Of a stretch of DNA of 22,992 bases, positions 8,536 through 19,023 are shown piece by piece. A model generated the notes under the pieces. The model was not told the origin of the DNA. It saw nothing but the letters and a program-made list of their open reading frames with translations, and ran no database searches. This DNA comes from Enteropsectra breve. Lineage: Eukaryota > Microsporidia. A program made the translations under genes and the position numbers. Numbering within the stretch: position 1 is the first letter of the stretch; every line of letters starts with the position of its first letter. The stretch covers positions 1-22,992 of the forward strand of contig JALPMN010000579.1 in NCBI GenBank assembly GCA_024243835.1. Direction: 5' to 3'.

Positions 8536-9693
8536 CTAATTTACAAGATCCACCGGAACTCCACTCCACACCTCATGGCCACGGCGGAATTCTTTCTCAC
8601 GGGAGAACTCAAGATCGCCACGGCAGATCGGACAGGTCGTTTCACGCTCGCACCAGAGCTTGAGGCACTCGGCATGGAAGCAGTGCCCACAGCGCAGCTG
8701 CTTGCCCCGGCCAATATCGTCGGTGCATATCGCACAGGTGCCGGTCATCTCAATCTCAGGGACATTCTTGAGATACTCACAAAGGCCCAGGTATTTTCTA
8801 AAAAGAACAATTTTCTTGCAGAGCTTCTGGCATGTGATAAGCAGCGAGCGTGCTGATGAAAATGGGAATTTGTACATCGCCGTAACAATCAGGGTAAAAG
8901 CCAAATAAAGCAGTATTTTGAAGACCAGGCAGACAATGCCGATTGCAAAGATGTACAGCGATCTGTTGGTCTCAATGCCCAGAAAGTCCAAAAGTACAGC
9001 AGTTGCAGTCTCCAGCATGTCGAGCGTAAAAAGCGCAAATTCCAGACCAAACAGAATTTTGGAGCTGTAGACCAGCAGGCACTTCTTAAGGCAGAAAACA
9101 GCAATGGCAGTGCTGGGGAGGATGGTGGAGAAGGCGGTGATGAGCATTTTTTTGTTGAAGCTGCGCGATGATTTGATCACAAATATCCACTGGAAAGTTC
9201 TAAAACAAAAGAGTCCGGCAAACGCAATTAAATTCGGCATATCCAGATCCTTGGAGAAAAAAGAAAGAACAACAATCAACTCAGAGAAAAACTCATACAC
9301 ATTCTCGTTGTAGAGCATCGTTTCTGATTCGCTGAGCTTGCCGAGTGATGTGTCTGTTATTTTAAAAGTCAGCCAGAGAAAGATGTGGATGGCGAGCGCT
9401 GTATGGAGGAAATGAAGAAAGTTTGTGTTGACAACATTGCTTAAGATGGAGAAGAAGTTCCTTTGTCTGGGAATTGCAATGGCGAGCAGTGTGAGGATGG
9501 AGAAGTGCAGAGAGAGGCCCTTCACGGAAAGAAACATTGGGGCTTTGAAAAATAAAAAGCAAAGTGTTCTGCATATCATGTATAAAAATAGCCCATGCAA
9601 GATGCTAATAGCAGCCAATAAAACAGAAGAGTGGTTTAAAAGTAATTTACTTACTAAATAACCGTATTTGAAGTATAAAATAATGTATTTCAT
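8536..9693 (-). CDS. HRD1: Multi-pass membrane RING-H2 E3 ligase, Hrd1-like
   Basis: Probably the ER-associated degradation ubiquitin ligase that moves misfolded ER proteins to the proteasome. The first ~290 residues contain several hydrophobic spans (for example SVLLAAISILHGLFLYMI, FLHFLHTALAIHIFLWLTF, SLYIFAIGIVCLVFKILLYL), consistent with six to eight membrane passes. Residues 320-358 form a C3H2C3 RING-H2 finger: CAIC, then CGHCFHAEC, then CPIC, all eight zinc ligands present. Order, length of the membrane part and the position of the RING directly after it fit Hrd1/synoviolin or the related gp78 type. The tail after the RING is only about 27 residues, far shorter than in yeast Hrd1. Other membrane RING ligases are not excluded. 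The large + strand ORF opposite the RING is a shadow. Confidence 0.8.
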   Translation of the reverse strand: MKYIILYFKYGYLVSKLLLNHSSVLLAAISILHGLFLYMICRTLCFLFFKAPMFLSVKGLSLHFSILTLLAIAIPRQRNFFSILSNVVNTNFLHFLHTALAIHIFLWLTFKITDTSLGKLSESETMLYNENVYEFFSELIVVLSFFSKDLDMPNLIAFAGLFCFRTFQWIFVIKSSRSFNKKMLITAFSTILPSTAIAVFCLKKCLLVYSSKILFGLEFALFTLDMLETATAVLLDFLGIETNRSLYIFAIGIVCLVFKILLYLAFTLIVTAMYKFPFSSARSLLITCQKLCKKIVLFRKYLGLCEYLKNVPEIEMTGTCAICTDDIGRGKQLRCGHCFHAECLKLWCERETTCPICRGDLEFSREKEFRRGHEVWSGVPVDLVN

Positions 9694-10172: not shown

Positions 10173-11111
10173 TCACTCAGTTCCGGGTAGTATCTCTCTC
10201 ATCATTAGATAGTATATTGCATCCGGTTCTACGTTGTGAAACACCATAGGATGGCCGTTATTTTGAATGCATTCTATCTTTGATTCGTTGTATTTAATGT
10301 TTTTAATGTCCTTAATATACAGGACTGACTCAACGGCGTACTTATTAGGGAGGATTTTTCTTCCGTTCGGATCTTGTATGAAATAAGTTGTTTCGAACTG
10401 GGCTGTCTTATCCTTGTAAACAGAATCCAGGTGCAGTTTTAAAATAAAGTGCGATTTGGCTGTCATTCCTGTAAATGTAACTCTTTCTGGATGTGCTGCG
10501 CCTTGGCACTGGGCACAATGTGAAGTCTGAAACAATGTGAGCATGCAAAGATCAACTTTTCCTGTCTCATCATAAACAGAAGGATTGGCACAGATATTCA
10601 GGCATATGTTTTCATCATTTATTTCCAATTTTCTTTTAGTGTTAAAACACAGTGCATTTCCTGTGACCCTGGTAAACATATTTTTGAATGGGTTATCGTA
10701 TTTGAATTCACTGGATTTTTCTGTCTCAAGGATTATCAGAAGAGTCTGCAATTTTCTTTCTAATGAGTGGTAATCGGATTTTTTTGCAAGGAAACTGTCC
10801 AGAACATTTATAGCATCTCGCTCATGTTTTTTTAGATCTTTATACTTCATGCTGCCATCAACAATCTTGATCATCATCTTTAGTGCGTTTGTATAAGATT
10901 TACACATAAATTCTTTGCCAAGAAGCGCCGATTTTACTTCTTTATTGGAAAGAATGAAGGACGAGATGTTTTGCAAGTAGTTTTGATTTAGCGGGTTTTC
11001 GGCATAATATTCATACACAAAGTATATGATCAGTGCACTAAATATCAGTAAGCAAAAAACTGCACATACACCAACTCTGAAGAGTAATAGATCATCCCCT
11101 TTAACATCCAT
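10173..11111 (-). CDS. Membrane-anchored degenerate USP-like protein, divergent array member (copy A)
   Basis: 312 aa, the most divergent of four paralogues. A membrane segment (about 12-33) is followed by a region I read as a ubiquitin-specific protease fold. NYLQNISSFILSNKEVKSAL (44-63) lies where USPs have TCYMNSxLQ, with Asn44 at the catalytic Cys position. PFKNMF (141-146) corresponds to the PFxG segment before the zinc fingers. Cys155 and CAQC (199-202) are finger remnants. YAVESVLYIKD and VFHN correspond to the C-terminal box, but the catalytic His is replaced (KIECIQNNGHP). It is thus the copy that has lost most active-site residues. GGG stands 2 bases before the ATG and AAAGGAG (+ strand) 50 bases upstream. 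That the paralogues are related is certain; the USP assignment is inferred. Confidence 0.75.
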   Translation of the reverse strand: MDVKGDDLLLFRVGVCAVFCLLIFSALIIYFVYEYYAENPLNQNYLQNISSFILSNKEVKSALLGKEFMCKSYTNALKMMIKIVDGSMKYKDLKKHERDAINVLDSFLAKKSDYHSLERKLQTLLIILETEKSSEFKYDNPFKNMFTRVTGNALCFNTKRKLEINDENICLNICANPSVYDETGKVDLCMLTLFQTSHCAQCQGAAHPERVTFTGMTAKSHFILKLHLDSVYKDKTAQFETTYFIQDPNGRKILPNKYAVESVLYIKDIKNIKYNESKIECIQNNGHPMVFHNVEPDAIYYLMMREILPGTE

Positions 11112-11113
11112 GT

Positions 11114-11167
11114 GGGTAATAAAATAGATCGATTGATAAAAATTTTAGAAAAATAATTTTAAAGGAG
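11114..11167 (-). promoter_or_regulatory. Promoter-like pair of motifs, copy A
   Basis: On the gene strand CTCCTTTAAAATT lies about 50 bases before the ATG and CCC 2 bases before it. The same two elements precede copies B, C and D. Confidence 0.4.
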
Positions 11168-11513
11168 AAAAAAAGAATTATATCACAAATGATTTTGCTT
11201 GATTTGCAACGACAAAATACCCCTTCTACAAAACTATTTGTATAACCAGCATGGGTCTAAAAGTATCATTTTGAATAAAAACGGCAAAATCTTTCAAATC
11301 TACCTTTTTCCTGTATAATTAGCGGCTTATAGTCCCTTAATTTTAGTTTTCAACATCTTCATGAATATTCAAATACTTTCTATGATATAACTAACAGAAT
11401 CGAAAGCTAATTATTCCATTTTAAATATTATAGTTTTACCATGCAAGTTGTAAAGCAGCTTAGATAACGCTTAGGCGAGTATTGAAAAAAATATAAAATG
11501 ATAAGTTTATAAT
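11168..11513. other. Gene-free spacer between copies A and B
   Basis: AT-rich, no ORF, RNA gene or notable repeat seen. Confidence 0.45.
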
Positions 11514-12428
11514 TTAATTTGATCTCTCTTTCATCATGGCATAATATGCTCCATCCTTCTGGAAATCGTTAAATACTAGGGGCTGCCCCTTGTTCTCCAC
11601 ATAGTGCATCGTAGCGCCCATGATGGAGCTGTCCTTAATATAGAGAACTGAAAGAACCTCATATTCATTTGGCTGGAGAATTTCTCCCACCTCATTTTTT
11701 AAATGGTATCTTTCCCTAAACTGAATTGGTGTATTTTTGAATTCTTTAACTGCCTCTATTCTCCAGATAAAATACTTATTGGCAGATACAAAATCTAAGG
11801 CCATGGTTTCGTTGTGGTAGGTTGAGTTGCACTGCGTACAAGGCGCATCCTCATAGATTGGCTTTATCTCAAAATCAAACGTTCCCTTCGCGTCAAGATC
11901 TGAGGGACTGAGTTTTGTATAAAGAAAAACGTAGTTATCAGCATCTTTTACTGTCCTTTTTGTACTGGGACAGGTAAGCGACCTGTTGTATTTGACAAAC
12001 AGCCCGTTGAATGGACTGTCTGGACGACCTGAATTGTCATTTTCCAAATGCTGCAGTATTTGCATGAATTTTATGCTGACAGGAGCCTTTTCCTCAGTAT
12101 TGTATGTTATGCTACGAAGGAAATAATCAAAATTTCGGATACTATTTTGCTCGCTCTTTGGCAGGTTTTTGTACTCAATCCCTTCATCAACTATTTTAAG
12201 CAATGCTTTGAGGGCATGTGTTTTTGAGCCCTCAGGAAATTCATTTGCGATGAGCCATGCCTTTATTTCCTTATTGGAGAAAATGAATGAAGCGGCATCT
12301 CTTAGATAAGTTGAAATCGAGCTATACAGGCTTTTGATGACTAACCAAACAATACAGCCTACTAGTACCACTATTGCGAGTGCTATTCCATAATAGATAA
12401 GATCTTCCCCCAGTGCTTTTAACAACAT
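11514..12428 (-). CDS. Membrane-anchored degenerate USP-like protein (copy B)
   Basis: 304 aa. A membrane anchor (about 12-32) would leave the rest on one face of a membrane. Landmarks in USP order: TYLRDAASFIFSNKEIKAWL (40-59), aligning with the Cys box TCYMNSxLQxL but with Thr40 for the catalytic Cys; a helical part ending in FMQILQHLE (121-129); SPFNGLF (138-144); CPST (153-156), half of a zinc knuckle; CTQC (197-200), an intact knuckle; KYFIWRIEA (218-226), like the LPxxLIxxLxRF strand; NEYEVLSVLYI (254-264); MHYVENKG with His275, the GHY position; FND with Asn287-Asp288; and AYYAMM (294-299), like the final AYxLFY. Cys loss predicts no deubiquitinase activity, with possible ubiquitin binding. 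The start is set by CCCC three bases upstream. Nearest relative is copy C, with visibly similar DNA. Confidence 0.8.
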   Translation of the reverse strand: MLLKALGEDLIYYGIALAIVVLVGCIVWLVIKSLYSSISTYLRDAASFIFSNKEIKAWLIANEFPEGSKTHALKALLKIVDEGIEYKNLPKSEQNSIRNFDYFLRSITYNTEEKAPVSIKFMQILQHLENDNSGRPDSPFNGLFVKYNRSLTCPSTKRTVKDADNYVFLYTKLSPSDLDAKGTFDFEIKPIYEDAPCTQCNSTYHNETMALDFVSANKYFIWRIEAVKEFKNTPIQFRERYHLKNEVGEILQPNEYEVLSVLYIKDSSIMGATMHYVENKGQPLVFNDFQKDGAYYAMMKERSN

Positions 12429-12431
12429 ATT

Positions 12432-12469
12432 GGGGATAAAATCTTTGGATCATTTTTATTTTAAAGGAG
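12432..12469 (-). promoter_or_regulatory. Promoter-like pair of motifs, copy B
   Basis: On the gene strand: CTCCTTTAAAATAAAAAT with its CTCCTTT 35 bases before the ATG, and CCCC three bases before it. Spacing is the same as for copies C and D. Confidence 0.45.
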
Positions 12470-13062
12470 AGTAAAATTTTTAAAGGATGTATATTTTTTA
12501 TTCGAATTAGAATTGTGTGTAAATAGTCTAATAATTAAATACCGCTCTATGGATAACCATTATTTATAGCATAAGGCTATTAACGATAAGAATGTTTTAT
12601 TGAATATTGTAGAATAAAAGACATACTGCTGCAAAAGCATTAATTCTAGAAATAAATCAGCTTATTTTTAGATATGCCGCATATTCAGATCTCATTTTGT
12701 CGAAATACCTCAAATGGACTGATGAAATTTTAATTAAATTACCCATGTTAGAGCAACAACCAAATAGCTTCTTTTCGTTTAGTAAAGAACCTGAAAGCGA
12801 AACAATTAAAGGATATGTGTGTCTAAACCTTCTTTTTACAACTTTTCCATCTAGATATAAGTTTACGGGAACTAAGGTTTCAACTTGAATAAGACTTTTA
12901 GATTATGGCTGGACTTAATTAGTAAAATAACAGTAATAATAATCGTTAGACAAATCACACTACAAAATGGGTTGAAAAAAAGACTATTTTTGAAAAGGCT
13001 TTGTGTCGAAAAAATGAATAATGCAACCCAAGGGTATTTAAATTTTATTTTAATATCTATGG
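12470..13062. other. Gene-free spacer between copies B and C
   Basis: About 590 bp of AT-rich sequence. The only ORF of note (12697-12888, +) has no ATG and no start signal. I see no RNA gene or clear repeat. Confidence 0.45.
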
Positions 13063-13980
13063 TTAAAATCCACTTTTATAATCTGATTTCTCTTTCATCA
13101 TGACAAAATATGCTCCATTCTTCGCTAGATCGTTAAATACCAACGGCTGTCCCTTGTTCTCCACAAAGTGCATCGTGACCGAGAACCAGTTAAGCCTGAT
13201 ATAAAGAATTGAAACAATTTCATATTTGTTTGGTTGAAGAATTTCTCCAGCCTCATTTTTTAGATAATATTGCTCCTTAAATTGAACTGTTGTTCCTTTG
13301 AAGTCCTCAGTTGCCACTATTTTCCAAATAAAATACTTATTGGCTGACGCAAAAGTCAGTGTCTTGTTTTCTTTGTGGAAATAAGCATTGCACTGGGTAC
13401 AAAATGGATATTCAGTCAACTGCTTTGCTCTAAAACTAAAGGCTCCGTTCTTGTCTAGATCAGAACGGCTGAGATCTGTTTTAAGAAATATACATTTTTC
13501 AGTGCTCTCCATGGTTTTCGTTGTGCTGGGACATAAAAGAGACGTGTTAAATGTAACAGCCATGCGGTCAAATGCACTATCTGGACGATCAGAGTTTTCT
13601 TTCACTAAAAATTCTAGAATTTGCATAAATTTCATGTCTATAGGAAGCTTGTGCTCAGGAACCGCTGTTATGCTACGAAGGAAGTAGTCTAGTTTTAAGA
13701 TACTGTTTTTCTCATCCTTTGTCAGGTATTTATAGTCCATTCCTTCATCAACTATTTTCATCATTGCTTTGAGGGCATATGTATATGATTCTTCGGGAAA
13801 CCGGCTGGATTTGAGCCAGATCTTTATTTCTTCATTGCTAAGGATAAATGACATGGTATCCTTTAGCTGAGTTGAGACCGAGCTATAGAAGCAACTGGCG
13901 ATATAAATGCCAATACCAGCTATTGCTGTGCAAATTCCCATAACTATCCAGTAGTCTAATGATCCCACATACCACTCCAT
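13063..13980 (-). CDS. Membrane-anchored degenerate USP-like protein (copy C)
   Basis: 305 aa, close to copy B throughout. Membrane segment about 10-32. The Cys-box equivalent is TQLKDTMSFILSNEEIKIWL (37-56), with Thr37 at the catalytic Cys and Gln38 at the following aromatic. Other landmarks are FMQILEFL (118-125), CPST (150-153), CTQC (194-197), KYFIWKIVA, NKYEIVSILYI, His271 in TMHFVENKG, Asn283-Asp284 in FND, and AYFVMM. Its SAFDRM replaces SPFNGL, so the segment before the finger has decayed. The extra tail (YKSGF) after the shared KEKS end comes from a lost stop. CCCC lies three bases before the ATG. The Harbinger transposon begins about 330 bp beyond its start codon, outside the promoter motifs. 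Confidence 0.8.
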   Translation of the reverse strand: MEWYVGSLDYWIVMGICTAIAGIGIYIASCFYSSVSTQLKDTMSFILSNEEIKIWLKSSRFPEESYTYALKAMMKIVDEGMDYKYLTKDEKNSILKLDYFLRSITAVPEHKLPIDMKFMQILEFLVKENSDRPDSAFDRMAVTFNTSLLCPSTTKTMESTEKCIFLKTDLSRSDLDKNGAFSFRAKQLTEYPFCTQCNAYFHKENKTLTFASANKYFIWKIVATEDFKGTTVQFKEQYYLKNEAGEILQPNKYEIVSILYIRLNWFSVTMHFVENKGQPLVFNDLAKNGAYFVMMKEKSDYKSGF

Positions 13981-13983
13981 CTT

Positions 13984-14022
13984 GGGGCTAAAATTAAATG
14001 CTGATTTTTATTATAAAGGGGA
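13984..14022 (-). promoter_or_regulatory. Promoter-like pair of motifs, copy C
   Basis: On the gene strand: CCCCTTTATAATAAAAAT with CCTTT 34 bases before the ATG, and GCCCC three bases before it. Beyond it to the transposon (14023-14309) the spacer shows nothing else. Confidence 0.45.
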
Positions 14023-14312
14023 ATGAGTTTTTTATTGAAGTAGTAATTTTATTAATTTTTGTTTTGAGTTAAAATTTTTGCGAAAATTTTAAATACAGCG
14101 GTAAAATATGGTAATTATTTGTTGGAAGGTTGCTTTTTGCAACATGAAAAAAAACATAGTTTGTGGAGTCTTTTTTAAAAAATAAAGCAGCTTATAAACA
14201 CAACGATGTGGTAAGGCAACACATAAAAATAAAGAGACGACGTAGAGCAAAGCTAGAAATAGTGTGCCAGGGTGAAGCCACAAAAGTTAATTATGAAGTA
14301 TGATTAAACTAA

Positions 14313-14335
14313 GGGCGTGTTCACATTTTTGCTTA
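14313..14335 (+). repeat. Left terminal inverted repeat
   Basis: 23 bp beginning GGGCGTGTTCACATTTTT; exact reverse complement of 16284-16306. Preceded by target duplication TAA (14310-14312). Confidence 0.95.
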
Positions 14336-14355
14336 TGGAAAAATTTTTCAAAATT

Positions 14356-14430
14356 ATGCGCATAGAAAATTCGATGCGCATTAGATTTTCTATGTGCATT
14401 TATAATTAATGAGTGTTCACATTTTTGCTT
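14356..14430. repeat. Left subterminal repeats of the transposon
   Basis: ATGCGCATAGAAAAT (14356-14370) faces ATTTTCTATGTGCAT (14385-14399), one mismatch. GTGTTCACATTTTTGCTT (14413-14430) repeats 18 bases of the terminal repeat in direct orientation. These are likely binding sites for the transposon-encoded proteins. Confidence 0.8.
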
Positions 14431-14467
14431 TTGTAAAATAAATATTAAAAAATTTTTATTATGATAT

Positions 14468-15472
14468 ATGCTGTCTCCTGGAAGAAAAAAATTCTTACTG
14501 TCAATGATTGATGAAGAATTGGTTTTATTAATGTTGAAAAAAAGGAGTACATTGTATGATGAAACGTGGTATAAAATGTCATTGAAAGAATATGACAATT
14601 CTCAATTTGAAGCCACTTACAGAATGCCTCGCTTGTGCATGACTTTTATAGAAGAAATTTTTTTTAGTAGAAGTTTACTTGTGAAAAGTGATGAAAATTT
14701 GAAGTATTTTCACATGCTTGTGTATTTCAGCATGTATAGTATAAGTTATCGTGCACTTGGTGAAAAATTTGGTGTTACAATTACAAAAACGTTTTATCAT
14801 TTACGCAGAATCAAGACGATATTTAATAGGGTAATAGGCCCTATTTATATTAAAAGACCACAGGGGACAGATGAATATATAGAACTTGCATCCAAATTTA
14901 GCACAAATAGGGGGTTGATAGGCACAATACTAGCGGTCGACGGGACTCATATACCAATAGAGGCCCCAAAACATCATGCGACTCAATATATAAATAGGAA
15001 AGGATGGTATTCCATAGTATTTCAATTAGTAGCAGATGCAGATTATATTATTCGAGACATATTTGGAGGTTTTCCAGGTTGCTGCCATGATGCCTATATT
15101 TATGCGAGATCTCCTTTTAAAAACTATGTCGATACTGTTATTCCTAGCCCATATTTTGTAATTGGTGATTCTGCTTATCCTTCTTCTGATAAACTGGCGA
15201 CTCCTTTTCGTGGAATTTTAACACTTGATCAAGAAATTTACACCAATCAACTATCTTCGCAAAGAATGCATATTGAGTGTACGATTGGCAGGATAAAAGG
15301 AAGATTTAAGCGTTTTATGACGTCTTCTAAAAATGGTGAAAATGCGCCGGCTGTTGGACTTTTTTATTTTGCTTGTGTACTACATAATATTATTACATTA
15401 CACAAGCTTGATTCTGCTGATAAGTATTACGAGGAGTATCTAAATGAACAAGAAAACGACAATAATGATTAA
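14468..15472 (+). CDS. PIF/Harbinger transposase (DDE superfamily, HARBI1-like)
   Basis: The 334-aa product is the nuclease that would excise and reinsert the element. An N-terminal helical part (to about 130) contains a helix-turn-helix-like region (YFSMYSISYRALGEKFGVTI). It is followed by the DDE_Tnp_4-type catalytic core. Asp158 is in AVDGTHIPI, Asp234 in GDSAYPSSDKL and Glu270 in HIECTIGRIKGRFKRF, the expected DDE triad. GCCHDAYIYARS (about 204-215) matches the conserved HDxxxxxxS segment. Length is normal for the family and no stop or frameshift is present, so it is probably functional. The ATG at 14468 is the first in frame. It converges on the Myb/SANT gene, ending 12 bases from it. 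Confidence 0.92.
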   Translation: MLSPGRKKFLLSMIDEELVLLMLKKRSTLYDETWYKMSLKEYDNSQFEATYRMPRLCMTFIEEIFFSRSLLVKSDENLKYFHMLVYFSMYSISYRALGEKFGVTITKTFYHLRRIKTIFNRVIGPIYIKRPQGTDEYIELASKFSTNRGLIGTILAVDGTHIPIEAPKHHATQYINRKGWYSIVFQLVADADYIIRDIFGGFPGCCHDAYIYARSPFKNYVDTVIPSPYFVIGDSAYPSSDKLATPFRGILTLDQEIYTNQLSSQRMHIECTIGRIKGRFKRFMTSSKNGENAPAVGLFYFACVLHNIITLHKLDSADKYYEEYLNEQENDNND

Positions 15473-15483
15473 AATTTAGTTAT

Positions 15484-16098
15484 TTAATTAAGTTTCTTTA
15501 GTACAGCATCGAGTTTTTCGTTAACGCTACTTAGGCCTTTTTTTAAATCAACGATGTCTTCCTCAATTTTTGTAATATTTATATTTTCATTATCAATTAG
15601 GCTTTTTATCAAATGATTACGCTCAGAAAATGAACTAGCTAGCATTTGCATTATACCATTGTCTTTTTTATTTTTATTGCTTGCTTTACCACTGGCTGTT
15701 AATACGTTTTGTACGGAATCACAACTCACAACGCTACTATCATAGTGTTCTACTTGTTCATCTAATAGTCCATCATTATCAACTACTGCAATAGGCGAAA
15801 TCGTCGGATTTTTAAACAAGTGCTCTTTGAGTATGGCATAATATTTCCACTTTACTGTACTCTCACCGCTTCGTCTTGCGATTAAGTCATGCTTTTTATA
15901 TTGCGTGAGCAAATAATTATACTGAATCCTGGCTTCAGCACCAGATATATCGTTGCCTATTTCTTCAGAAAGGCTATTCCATAAGATCCCAACTTGTCGC
16001 GCCCTTCCTTTCATTTCTTCAAAGCGCTCTTCCCATTCTCTGCTGCTTCTAAGCTCGATAAGCCTAATAATCTGATCATTGTTCCATTTTAGCTGCAT
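15484..16098 (-). CDS. Transposon Myb/SANT-like DNA-binding protein
   Basis: The 204-aa second protein of the Harbinger element. Residues 1-95 form a Myb/SANT-like (MADF-like) trihelical domain: MQLKWNNDQIIRLIELRSSR with Trp5, then Trp22 in REWEERFEEM, then GILWNSLSEEI, and a third helix around EARIQYNYLLTQYKK. In characterised Harbinger elements this protein helps the transposase enter the nucleus and binds the ends. The C-terminal part is acidic and polar and ends in a coiled coil (about 165-203) suited to dimerisation or transposase contact. Start ATG at 16098 lies just inside the right end of the element. The ORF is intact. Confidence 0.85.
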   Translation of the reverse strand: MQLKWNNDQIIRLIELRSSREWEERFEEMKGRARQVGILWNSLSEEIGNDISGAEARIQYNYLLTQYKKHDLIARRSGESTVKWKYYAILKEHLFKNPTISPIAVVDNDGLLDEQVEHYDSSVVSCDSVQNVLTASGKASNKNKKDNGIMQMLASSFSERNHLIKSLIDNENINITKIEEDIVDLKKGLSSVNEKLDAVLKKLN

Positions 16099-16201
16099 TA
16101 TATGGAATTTAAAAATTGCGTATAGAATTTTCTATCAACTCAGATGCAGATTGAAAATTCTACACGCAAAATATTTCTTTTGCCTAAGCAAAAAAAGAAG
16201 A

Positions 16202-16253
16202 GTGTTCACATTTATAAATATGGAAAAAATATTTTTCTATGCGCATAGAAAAA
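16202..16253. repeat. Right subterminal repeat and palindrome of the transposon
   Basis: GTGTTCACATTT (16202-16213) repeats part of the terminal motif. A perfect 22-bp palindrome centred on ATGCGCAT (16232-16253, TTTTTCTATGCGCATAGAAA...) shares CGCATAGAAAA with the left subterminal repeat. Confidence 0.85.
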
Positions 16254-16283
16254 TTTGGCCATTTACAAGCCAATTTTTTTGCT

Positions 16284-16306
16284 TAAGCAAAAATGTGAAC
16301 ACGCCC
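16284..16306 (-). repeat. Right terminal inverted repeat
   Basis: Exact reverse complement of the left terminal repeat, followed by target duplication TAA (16307-16309). Confidence 0.95.
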
Positions 16307-16536
16307 TAAGTTTTTTTTATAAACACGCCGTTAATTTTTAATTGGCTTTACAACAATTCAAATAGCAAAAAAGTGTGTCTAAGACACTCCAGTGGCAAAT
16401 ATACAATATACACGAATATTTATCACTGATCAGAGCCTGTTAGTCGATGCCGAGAATATTCAAACAAGTACTAGAGAAAAGGTTCAGTATATCTGCTGCA
16501 CAAGGGGCATCTAGCAAAAATGATGGTGCATAGTAT

Positions 16537-16598
16537 GCGCACTCCTAAAAGGTTTAGGATAACCAACAGACATTTCTGAACCTTTTAGTTCTGTGCGC
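16537..16598. repeat. Imperfect inverted repeat (62 bp)
   Basis: GCGCAC..TAAAAGGTT at the left pairs with AACCTTTTAG..GTGCGC at the right, with a small internal bulge (TCC opposite GTTCT). It could form a long hairpin. Confidence 0.65.
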
Positions 16599-16961
16599 AA
16601 AAATCTTATTGTGTAAAATGAGAAAGTGTTAGATCGTCAATTTAACAGTCCTTTTTTATACTACAAAACTTGAAAAAGAAAACATAGATGTCAACAGCAG
16701 CAATAATTATCAGGCTATAGAAAAAGCTGTTCTTACATAGTGCTATTGCTGCGGTGTATTGATAGGGGAATTCAAGCAAAAATATTTAATATAGGAAGCA
16801 TTTTAAAACGTAGAAAGTCGCATTTTAATAGCACACAACATGTCTGGTCATTAATGTCAACACAAGAATTGTTCAAATGATTTATTTCTCTCTGGCGTTC
16901 CATCCTCTCTTTCCGTTGTAAAATATTTATCAAAATTTTATAACGACAATTAAAATATCAG

Positions 16962-16986
16962 CAAGAGAGGATTTTCACCTCTCTTG
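16962..16986. repeat. Perfect 9-bp hairpin
   Basis: CAAGAGAGG (16962-16970), a 7-nt loop ATTTTCA, and CCTCTCTTG (16978-16986). GC content is well above its surroundings. It lies about 170 bases past the stop codon of copy D. Confidence 0.6.
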
Positions 16987-17151
16987 AACATTTAAAATGG
17001 TAGTTAAATTTGCTTCTTAAATGTTTATATTTTTAAACCCCTAATGCCAATTAATAGTGTTTGCTTTGGTGCTTCATCTTTTAACATTACTATCTTAATT
17101 AAACAATAAGGATCTAACTAAAAGATAAAAAATATCGCTAAAGCTTATTAT

Positions 17152-18057
17152 TTAATTCGATTTCTTTTTCATCATAACATAGTATACTCCAGAGATCGTG
17201 AGATCGTTAAATACCATCGGCAGCCCATTGTTCTCGACATAGTGCATCGTAAAGTGTCTTATAGACATGTCCTTAATATAAAGAATTGAAATAACTTCAT
17301 ACTCGCTTGACTGGTGATTTTCTCCCGCATCATTTTGCAAATAATATTTCTCCTTAAATTGAATTAATTTCCCATTGAAGTCTTCTCTCGCTTCTATTCT
17401 CCAAATTAGATACTTACTGGCTGATACAAGCGTTACAGTCCTCTTTTCATTGTGATCCAAGGTGTTGCAAGAGGGACAGAATAGACCCTCTGACACAAGG
17501 CTTGTTTTAAAATCAACAACTCCCTTCGTATCAATTCCAGAAGGACTAAGATGTGTCTCAAGGAAAATAGATTCTTCAGAGATTAACTCCGTTTTCTTTG
17601 TGATTGGACAACAACGCGTTACGTCATATTTAACCAATAAACTGCCAAACGGACTGTCGTAACGTGATGAATATTCTCTTTCCAGCAAATTCAAAAGATT
17701 CATAAATTTTATGTTCATAACAGCCTCATCTGCATAGTCAACGTTTATGTTTAGAAAGTTAAAATCGCAATTTCTGATACTATTTTTCTCACTCTTCGAC
17801 AAGTTTTTATACTCCACGCCGTCATCAACAATCTTTAGCAATGCCTTGAGGGCATGTGCTTTTGTTCCTTCGGGAAAGTCATTTGCTCTGAGCCATTCCT
17901 TTATTTCTTTATTGCCAAAAATGAAGGAAGCGGCAATTCTCAGATAATATGAGGCTGATTTGTATCTGCGCTTTAGGAAAAATCGATCAATGTAGCTTAT
18001 TACAGAAACTACTATTACTGCAATAACCAGCCCAATAAGATAATCCATAATAGCCAT
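17152..18057 (-). CDS. Membrane-anchored degenerate USP-like protein (copy D)
   Basis: 301 aa from the ATG at 18057. I prefer this to the in-frame ATG at 18075 because CCCCC lies three bases upstream and the 35-base promoter spacing then equals that of copies B and C. Membrane segment about 7-24 followed by basic FFLKRRYKS, which suggests the rest is cytosolic. The Cys-box equivalent YYLRIAASFIFGNKEIKEWL has Tyr37 for the catalytic Cys. Other landmarks are FMNLLNLLE, SPFGSLLVKY (135-144), CCPIT, CPSC (194-197), KYLIWRIEA, SEYEVISILYI, His272 in TMHYVENNG, Asn284-Asp285 in FND, and VYYVMM. It lies beyond the inserted transposon but in line with copies A-C. Confidence 0.8.
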   Translation of the reverse strand: MAIMDYLIGLVIAVIVVSVISYIDRFFLKRRYKSASYYLRIAASFIFGNKEIKEWLRANDFPEGTKAHALKALLKIVDDGVEYKNLSKSEKNSIRNCDFNFLNINVDYADEAVMNIKFMNLLNLLEREYSSRYDSPFGSLLVKYDVTRCCPITKKTELISEESIFLETHLSPSGIDTKGVVDFKTSLVSEGLFCPSCNTLDHNEKRTVTLVSASKYLIWRIEAREDFNGKLIQFKEKYYLQNDAGENHQSSEYEVISILYIKDMSIRHFTMHYVENNGLPMVFNDLTISGVYYVMMKKKSN

Positions 18058-18198: not shown

Positions 18199-19023
18199 TT
18201 ATAAGTCTGCCAGTACCGTCTGGTTTGTTATTTTTTCGTTGCAGGCAGTTCCATGTCCAGGGAAGCGGGATGGCAACGCATCACGGTACTGCTCAAACAG
18301 GCATTTCCCAGCATAGGGATGCAGAAAGGAACTGGCCTTTATTTTGTGGGCACGGCAGCTCTCTGGAAATATGCAGCAAATAGAAGTTGCGGGAACTGCA
18401 GAAACCCTCCAGTGTGCATTTTCGATTTTATCACTAAACTTCTGTTTTCCAAGCATCTTCAGAATCGCATCCAGTTTCCCCACTATTCCGGCAGAATATT
18501 TCCCTGGAGGCATAAAGTAGTCCTGTGGGTCAGTTTCATTCCCGCTGTCCGGCAAGTATTTGCTGGTCTGCACCAGATTTGCAAATTCAATATGCAAAGT
18601 CTGCGTATTTTTGAGCACAAGCAAATCAAGCTTTGGCTCCTCTATTGTGACTTGGATGTAGCACTTGTAAAGGTTGTTTTTATTTTTTGCCACGAATCCT
18701 GGGTCCAGATAGGACTGTCCCTTTATTCCTGTGATTGACGCATCAAACTTTGTCACTTCAGGATCAACTAGTTTTTCGATTCTCAGCAAATTTAGGCACG
18801 GGATGCAGATGGTATTGTATTTGTAAAGAGGTTTCTGTAGCTTTGTCTCACTCTTTACAAATACTTTGCTGCTGTTCTCAGGATTCACTATCTTGTCAGT
18901 TGCATGCTCTGTCTTCATAAAGTAGTCGCAGCATGCGCCTTTGTTCTTGCAGTTTTTCGATGGATAGAAGTGATCCTCGAGAAACACTGCCGATGCTGCA
19001 AGGATGTACAGCCAGCCACGCAT
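18199..19023 (-). CDS. Secreted or lumenal Cys-rich protein, unrecognised (274 aa)
   Basis: A signal peptide (MRGWLYILAASAVFLEDHF, cut about residue 15) and no second membrane segment point to secretion or the ER lumen. Eleven or so cysteines include NCKNKGACC near the start, CIPC (about 73-76), CC, ESC and two late single Cys, which suggests disulfides. No family is recognised with confidence. Weak order-of-motif resemblance to the USP-like array next door: CIPC, then MPPGKYSAGIVGK, then AHWRVSA, then HPYAGKCLFEQYRD could echo the finger, the YxLxxVI strand, the His box and the final AYxLFY. This may be coincidence. It lies 141 bp upstream of copy D on the same strand. It could be a spore or host-directed protein. 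Confidence 0.6.
   Translation of the reverse strand: MRGWLYILAASAVFLEDHFYPSKNCKNKGACCDYFMKTEHATDKIVNPENSSKVFVKSETKLQKPLYKYNTICIPCLNLLRIEKLVDPEVTKFDASITGIKGQSYLDPGFVAKNKNNLYKCYIQVTIEEPKLDLLVLKNTQTLHIEFANLVQTSKYLPDSGNETDPQDYFMPPGKYSAGIVGKLDAILKMLGKQKFSDKIENAHWRVSAVPATSICCIFPESCRAHKIKASSFLHPYAGKCLFEQYRDALPSRFPGHGTACNEKITNQTVLADL

Follow-up and report, generated by a model that had tools for sequence, protein, structure and literature searches.

We asked what kind of proteins is encoded in the centre of a 22,992-bp contig of the microsporidian Enteropsectra breve (JALPMN010000579.1, our contig C66; the whole contig is the window referred to below), where four open reading frames (ORFs) that resemble one another lie on the minus strand (Table 1; copies are named by their lower coordinate). 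A sequence-only reading of this DNA had described them as a tandem family of membrane-anchored proteins with a degenerate ubiquitin-specific protease (USP) fold. Our analysis supports a degenerate USP fold with a membrane anchor, by the structure match of one copy and by a deepened profile in a sensible register. We consider it likely that the four copies belong to a fast-evolving, functionally constrained family of membrane-anchored pseudo-deubiquitinases, so far seen in E. breve only, in which the domain would be a non-catalytic binding or scaffold module.

Four paralogues with a USP-like domain

The four ORFs comprise 312, 304, 305 and 307 codons. The other copies are 30-53% identical to the 11514 copy and 56 columns are invariant across the four, so that the description as same-strand paralogues was borne out. 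The same holds for the N-terminal membrane segment, as each copy has one strong N-terminal hydrophobic segment (Kyte-Doolittle hydropathy, KD, 2.08-2.82). The ORF of copy 4 extends to 18075; its true start is probably the second ATG at 18057, where the sequence-only reading had ended it, because CCCCC directly precedes this ATG, as CCCC precedes copies 11514 and 13063. The motifs that had been listed in USP order do occur in that order, but they are consensus-like, each being exact in one to three of the four copies: SPFxGL, YEVxSVLYI and MHYVENKG are exact in the 11514 copy only, CPST is exact in two of the four, and the 10173 copy has IECIQNNG in place of MHYVENKG and VFHN in place of VFND.

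Does the domain adopt a USP fold? The AlphaFold 2 model of the 11514 copy (predicted local distance difference test, pLDDT, 77.7; predicted template modelling score, pTM, 0.73) has the predicted fingers-palm-thumb architecture of a USP, and a structure search with it, a check that had been proposed for the locus, found USP domains only among the 50 matches listed, with 7-14% identity in the listed matches. We also compared profiles. The first was built from the 19 members of the wider family described below, the second from nine distinct USPs of the same genome, found with PF00443. In hhalign the two matched with a probability of 93.5% (P 2.3e-7, score 60.9 over 206 columns). Because the reversed profiles scored 12.2 and 11.4 and the best of 100 column shuffles 15.9, the match is above chance. 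Its register is also sensible for a USP: SFIFSNKEIKAWL is aligned with the helix that follows the Cys box and CTQC with the second knuckle, KYFIWRI corresponds to the 'YLxVxIxR' strand, and NEYEVLSVLYI to the 'YxxxAxIxH' strand. Nearer the C-terminus, MHYV, VFND and YYAMM lie outside the profile match and are supported by the structure match alone. When single ORFs were used as templates (53 ORFs outside the alignment), the first two ranks went to family pieces on contig C26 and ranks 3-6 to USPs (scores 43.2 to 28.9), the best unrelated ORF scoring 23.7. Homology to USPs is thus detectable by profile-profile comparison.

Could the structure match nevertheless be that of a look-alike, an unrelated membrane protein? 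Several results weigh on that side and against a USP relationship. The modelling alignment of the 11514 copy held four sequences only; the model of the 10173 copy was poor, and in itself carries no weight for or against the fold. Taken one by one, five of the nine USPs were not separated from unrelated ORFs (L047 scored 21.3 and L051 18.2; L050, L049 and L053 ranked 26, 30 and 36). When the profile was limited to the four proteins of the window, it found no USP match, and in single-sequence Pfam searches none of the 19 members matched UCH. The sequence-only reading had named a missing UCH hit, with another family scoring clearly, as what would count against it; at the single-sequence level the hit is indeed missing, but no other family exceeded its cut-off either and the deepened profile does reach USPs. 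As the profile-profile evidence is independent of the structure and has the same register, we regard a look-alike as extremely improbable.

Loss of the active site

We then asked whether such a domain could be catalytic. The profile alignments begin at residues 45-46; extending them back by 5-6 residues places the USP cysteines (L051 Cys82, L048 Cys23) at Thr40 of the 11514 protein. The columns of residues 38-43 are without Cys in all 18 full-length members. Only the copy on contig C1 has a Cys anywhere between columns 37 and 44, and this residue belongs to an insertion, two residues ahead of column 40. The Cys box itself is absent, and the segment that had been described as Cys-box-like corresponds to the helix directly following it. 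In the family alignment of 19 members, neither the USP His box (GHY) nor the Asp/Asn is conserved. The MHY histidine is found in three window copies only (the USP profile match ends before it), and three window copies keep the 'ND' of VFND (residues 287-288), so that these residues are not a family-wide active site. Since the catalytic column has no Cys and the His is kept in only 3/19 members, the proteins would not be proteases of the known USP mechanism. Judged by the 11514 model and the family alignment together, this is a USP fold that has lost its catalytic triad, that is, a pseudo-USP.

Alternatively, the proteins could be active proteases whose active site is unusual or displaced, as has been argued for PAN2/USP52; there is precedent for this, pseudo-USPs having been reconsidered as active before (PMC10919355, in part). 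The H275 and ND 287-288 retained by three window copies and the nearby Cys of the C1 copy would be consistent with it, but the catalytic column is devoid of Cys in 18/18 members, and the only domain columns with Cys in at least four members are of the zinc type. We therefore hold this alternative to be very improbable.

The zinc-type columns themselves suggest a modified site. In the first knuckle most members have Thr at the place of the second Cys (CxxT), so the family does not have two CxxC knuckles, which are not universal in USPs either. The exchange of His and Cys at position 205 is the pattern expected of a zinc ligand, and we therefore propose this position as a replacement ligand in a rebuilt zinc site of the form C...CxxC...H/C. 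All four putative positions (153, 197, 200 and 205) are present in 13/19 members.

The family in the genome

Is the family confined to this locus? A genome search using the members found at least 14 more full-length ORFs on ten other contigs (18 full-length in total). This search covered an assembly of 3.96 Mb in 155 contigs, and the published E. breve assembly is ~6.0 Mb (PMC10393165, in part), so the family counts are lower bounds. The proposed tandem array thus stands as four same-strand copies but not as a simple tandem: a transposon-like element lies between copies 3 and 4, and relatives occur on ten further contigs. A copy on C80 is identical to that on C79, a further ORF on C148 lacks the N-terminus, a distant branch has 12-19% identity to the 11514 copy, and one family protein is identical to ENBRE01_1318 of E. 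breve. Broken or partial copies lie at C108:14115-14784, C53:2985-3212 and C19:17379-17480 and on C26/C32/C83, one of them scoring equally on three contigs; they appear to be signs of gene birth and death. Among nine family pairs tested (NG86), dS (synonymous divergence) was usable in six; in these, dN (nonsynonymous divergence) was 0.25-0.47 and dS 0.74-1.50, values of dS above 1 being rough; in the other three dS was 3.0 or undefined. The copies are thus kept by selection, yet fast-changing. The search of other microsporidian proteomes was made through the protein database, which includes Vittaforma, Pancytospora and Nematocida proteins; no relative outside E. breve was found there.

Families confined to a species or clade are abundant in these reduced genomes. 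E. breve is known to have a class of large gene families, defined by at least ten paralogues of which at least half have a transmembrane (TM) segment or a signal peptide (PMC10393165, in part); in the present family, hydropathy indicates a TM-like segment in 17 of the 18 full-length ORFs. It resembles EbrLGF, PanLGF and NemLGF, the species- or clade-specific membrane or secreted families of nematode-infecting species. According to the same source, also in part, no structural match was reported for EbrLGF1, only one of the five largest families in nematode-infecting species matched a solved protein, and some families are marked with Pfam peptidase domains (its Fig 4). The words 'USP', 'deubiquitin' and 'protease' do not occur in its main text, and our literature search found no description of a multicopy membrane-anchored pseudo-USP family. 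With one family tied to deubiquitinases by structure and profile, a set of 'hypothetical proteins' becomes a testable hypothesis.

Membrane anchor, topology and possible partners

The hydrophobic segment (KD at least 2.08) is present in 17/18 full-length members; C36a lacks it, and its start is possibly misjudged. In the 11514 model the membrane helix ends at residue 34, ~6 residues before the beginning of the first domain helix at residue 40, the catalytic position; we infer from this that the former active cleft lies at the membrane. Lysines and arginines (K/R) are more numerous in the C-terminal than in the N-terminal flank of the helix in 14/17 anchored members (the reverse in two, a tie in one), a count that is biased and weak as the N-flanks are shorter. 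It makes it more likely that the domain faces the parasite cytosol, at the endoplasmic reticulum (ER) or plasma membrane. In the mechanism that we propose, the helix would enter the domain at the former catalytic cysteine, so that the cleft, which in active USPs accommodates the ubiquitin tail, would lie at the membrane and the protein could not act as a protease. The USP fold, stabilised by the rebuilt zinc site, would then serve as a rigid module, fixed to a parasite membrane, for binding or scaffolding, and expansion of the family would provide variants with different surfaces.

What might such a module bind? A ubiquitin-related partner is possible but doubtful, and sequence does not favour it. 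The residues of the USP ubiquitin-contact motif (QDAxEF) are not kept at the corresponding SIKFMQIL. This loss, like the K/R bias towards a cytosolic domain (with the caveat on flank length), counts against a host-facing role, in which the domain on the parasite surface would bind host ubiquitin, a ubiquitin-like modifier or a ligase and blunt the nematode ubiquitin coat on parasites. In favour of such a role, the hosts of E. breve are nematodes, in which ubiquitin acts against microsporidia: C. elegans targets some cells of the nematode-infecting N. parisii with ubiquitin, most parasite cells escape, and blocking effectors were suggested by the authors (PMC4063957, in part). TM or signal-peptide families of these genomes are regarded as being in contact with the host (PMC10393165, in part), and E. 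breve also encodes three tandem USPs whose N-termini look by eye like signal peptides and in which Cys, His and Asp are present. On balance we judge the host-facing role unlikely. It is somewhat less unlikely that the domain works in the cytosol at the ER and regulates the ubiquitin system of the parasite itself, for example as a scaffold in ER-associated degradation or linked to HRD1. The predicted cytosolic domain would fit, and an HRD1/synoviolin-like RING protein (8536-9693) adjoins the array; however, adjacency is weak evidence, the remaining full-length members are spread over ten other contigs, and a housekeeping role is a poor fit for a diverging family without a database relative outside E. 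breve, despite the microsporidian proteins held there.

Comparison with known USPs and pseudo-USPs

Like USP domains (Pfam UCH PF00443, MEROPS C19; USP15, USP35, USP14), the family has the fold over residues 37-303 of the 11514 model and the same order of post-Cys-box helix, second finger knuckle, YLxVxIxR strand and YxxxAxIxH strand. It differs from them in having a membrane helix instead of the Cys box, no conserved His or Asp/Asn, a first zinc knuckle with one Cys and the low identity of the listed structure matches. USP30, which is among these matches, has an N-terminal membrane helix followed by the USP domain, the same order as in the family, but is an active enzyme with a Cys box. USP39/Sad1 and PAN2/USP52 are single-copy and soluble, whereas the E. 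breve family is multicopy and membrane-anchored, a kind that joins the few pseudo-USPs known. These two proteins act within complexes for splicing and deadenylation. Pseudo-deubiquitinases have been described as scaffolds or allosteric partners, although USP39 and PAN2 have each been reassessed as potentially active (PMC10919355, in part).

The genome has further USPs of note. The tandem USPs of contig C93, L054 (1420-3630), L055 (991-2562) and L056 (1258-2646), all on the minus strand, have by eye signal-peptide-like N-termini and the Cys, His and Asp, and are possibly secreted deubiquitinases. An identical ORF on contigs C65 and C78 (L051, 1285-2388, plus strand, and L052) encodes a USP in which a hydrophobic segment lies at the N-terminus and the active-site residues are apparently present. 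These proteins share with the family a signal- or anchor-like N-terminus (by eye), but by eye they still have Cys, His and Asp/Asn, and they exceed the Pfam UCH cut-off. In L054, an apparently active USP, the similar one-Cys first knuckle (CADG) and the extra Cys in the second (CAVCGKRSAEC) suggest that L054 and the family may have a common origin. We think it quite unlikely, and a shade less likely than the host-facing role, that a membrane helix run into a protease active site gave a diversifying membrane-surface family which, with the active USPs bearing apparent signal peptides, forms a two-part kit for countering the ubiquitin-based defence of the nematode, one part cutting and the other binding or acting as decoys without cutting. 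Separately, L053 (contig C108, 1486-2667, minus strand) is soluble and UCH-positive, by eye seems to be without a normal Cys box and GHY, and is possibly a second pseudo-USP in the genome.

Table 1. Positions of the pseudo-USP copies, their landmarks and other features (window coordinates unless contigs are given; residue numbers are those of copy 2)
Feature	Coordinates	Strand	Remarks
Pseudo-USP copy 1	10173..11111	-	312 aa; TM 11019-11075; most divergent of the four; own model poor
Pseudo-USP copy 2 (modelled protein)	11514..12428	-	304 aa; ORF, AlphaFold 2 model, predicted USP fold
Pseudo-USP copy 3	13063..13980	-	305 aa; TM 13891-13947
Pseudo-USP copy 4	17152..18057	-	301 aa from second ATG (probable start); TM 17998-18054
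TM helix core, copy 2	12336..12392	-	residues 13-31; KD 2.82; model helix 2-34
USP-like domain, copy 2	11517..12320	-	residues 37-304; structure-match ranges 37-303/304
Thr40 codon, putative place of USP catalytic Cys	12309..12311	-	register extended 5-6 residues; no Cys in column, 18/18 full-length members
Cys153, sole Cys left of zinc knuckle 1 (CPST)	11970..11972	-	16/19 members
Cys197-x2-Cys200, zinc knuckle 2	11829..11840	-	16/19 and 17/19
His205, proposed replacement zinc ligand	11814..11816	-	H in 10/19, C in 5/19
His275 of MHY, candidate catalytic-His position	11604..11606	-	kept in 3/19
Transposon-like element	14306..16313		inverted ends 14306-14343/16276-16313; splits copies 3 and 4
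Full-length members outside the window	C97, C36 (x2), C1, C148 (x2), C40, C154, C22 (x2), C137, C79, C39 (x2)		

Neighbouring genes and the element inside the array

The inverted ends of the transposon-like element are 38 nt long and 92% identical, and extra inner repeats match in part. A Pfam search found a DDE_Tnp_4 transposase within it (14468-15472, plus strand), by the type of which we take the element to be PIF/Harbinger-like; it also holds a Myb/SANT-like ORF (15484-16098, minus strand) that scored under the Pfam cut-off. The HRD1/synoviolin-like RING E3 gene beside the array is on the minus strand (TPR_SYVN1_N, E 6.3e-18). Next to copy 4, at 18199-19023 on the minus strand, lies a gene for a Cys-rich protein of 274 aa without a Pfam match, which by eye has a signal-peptide-like start.
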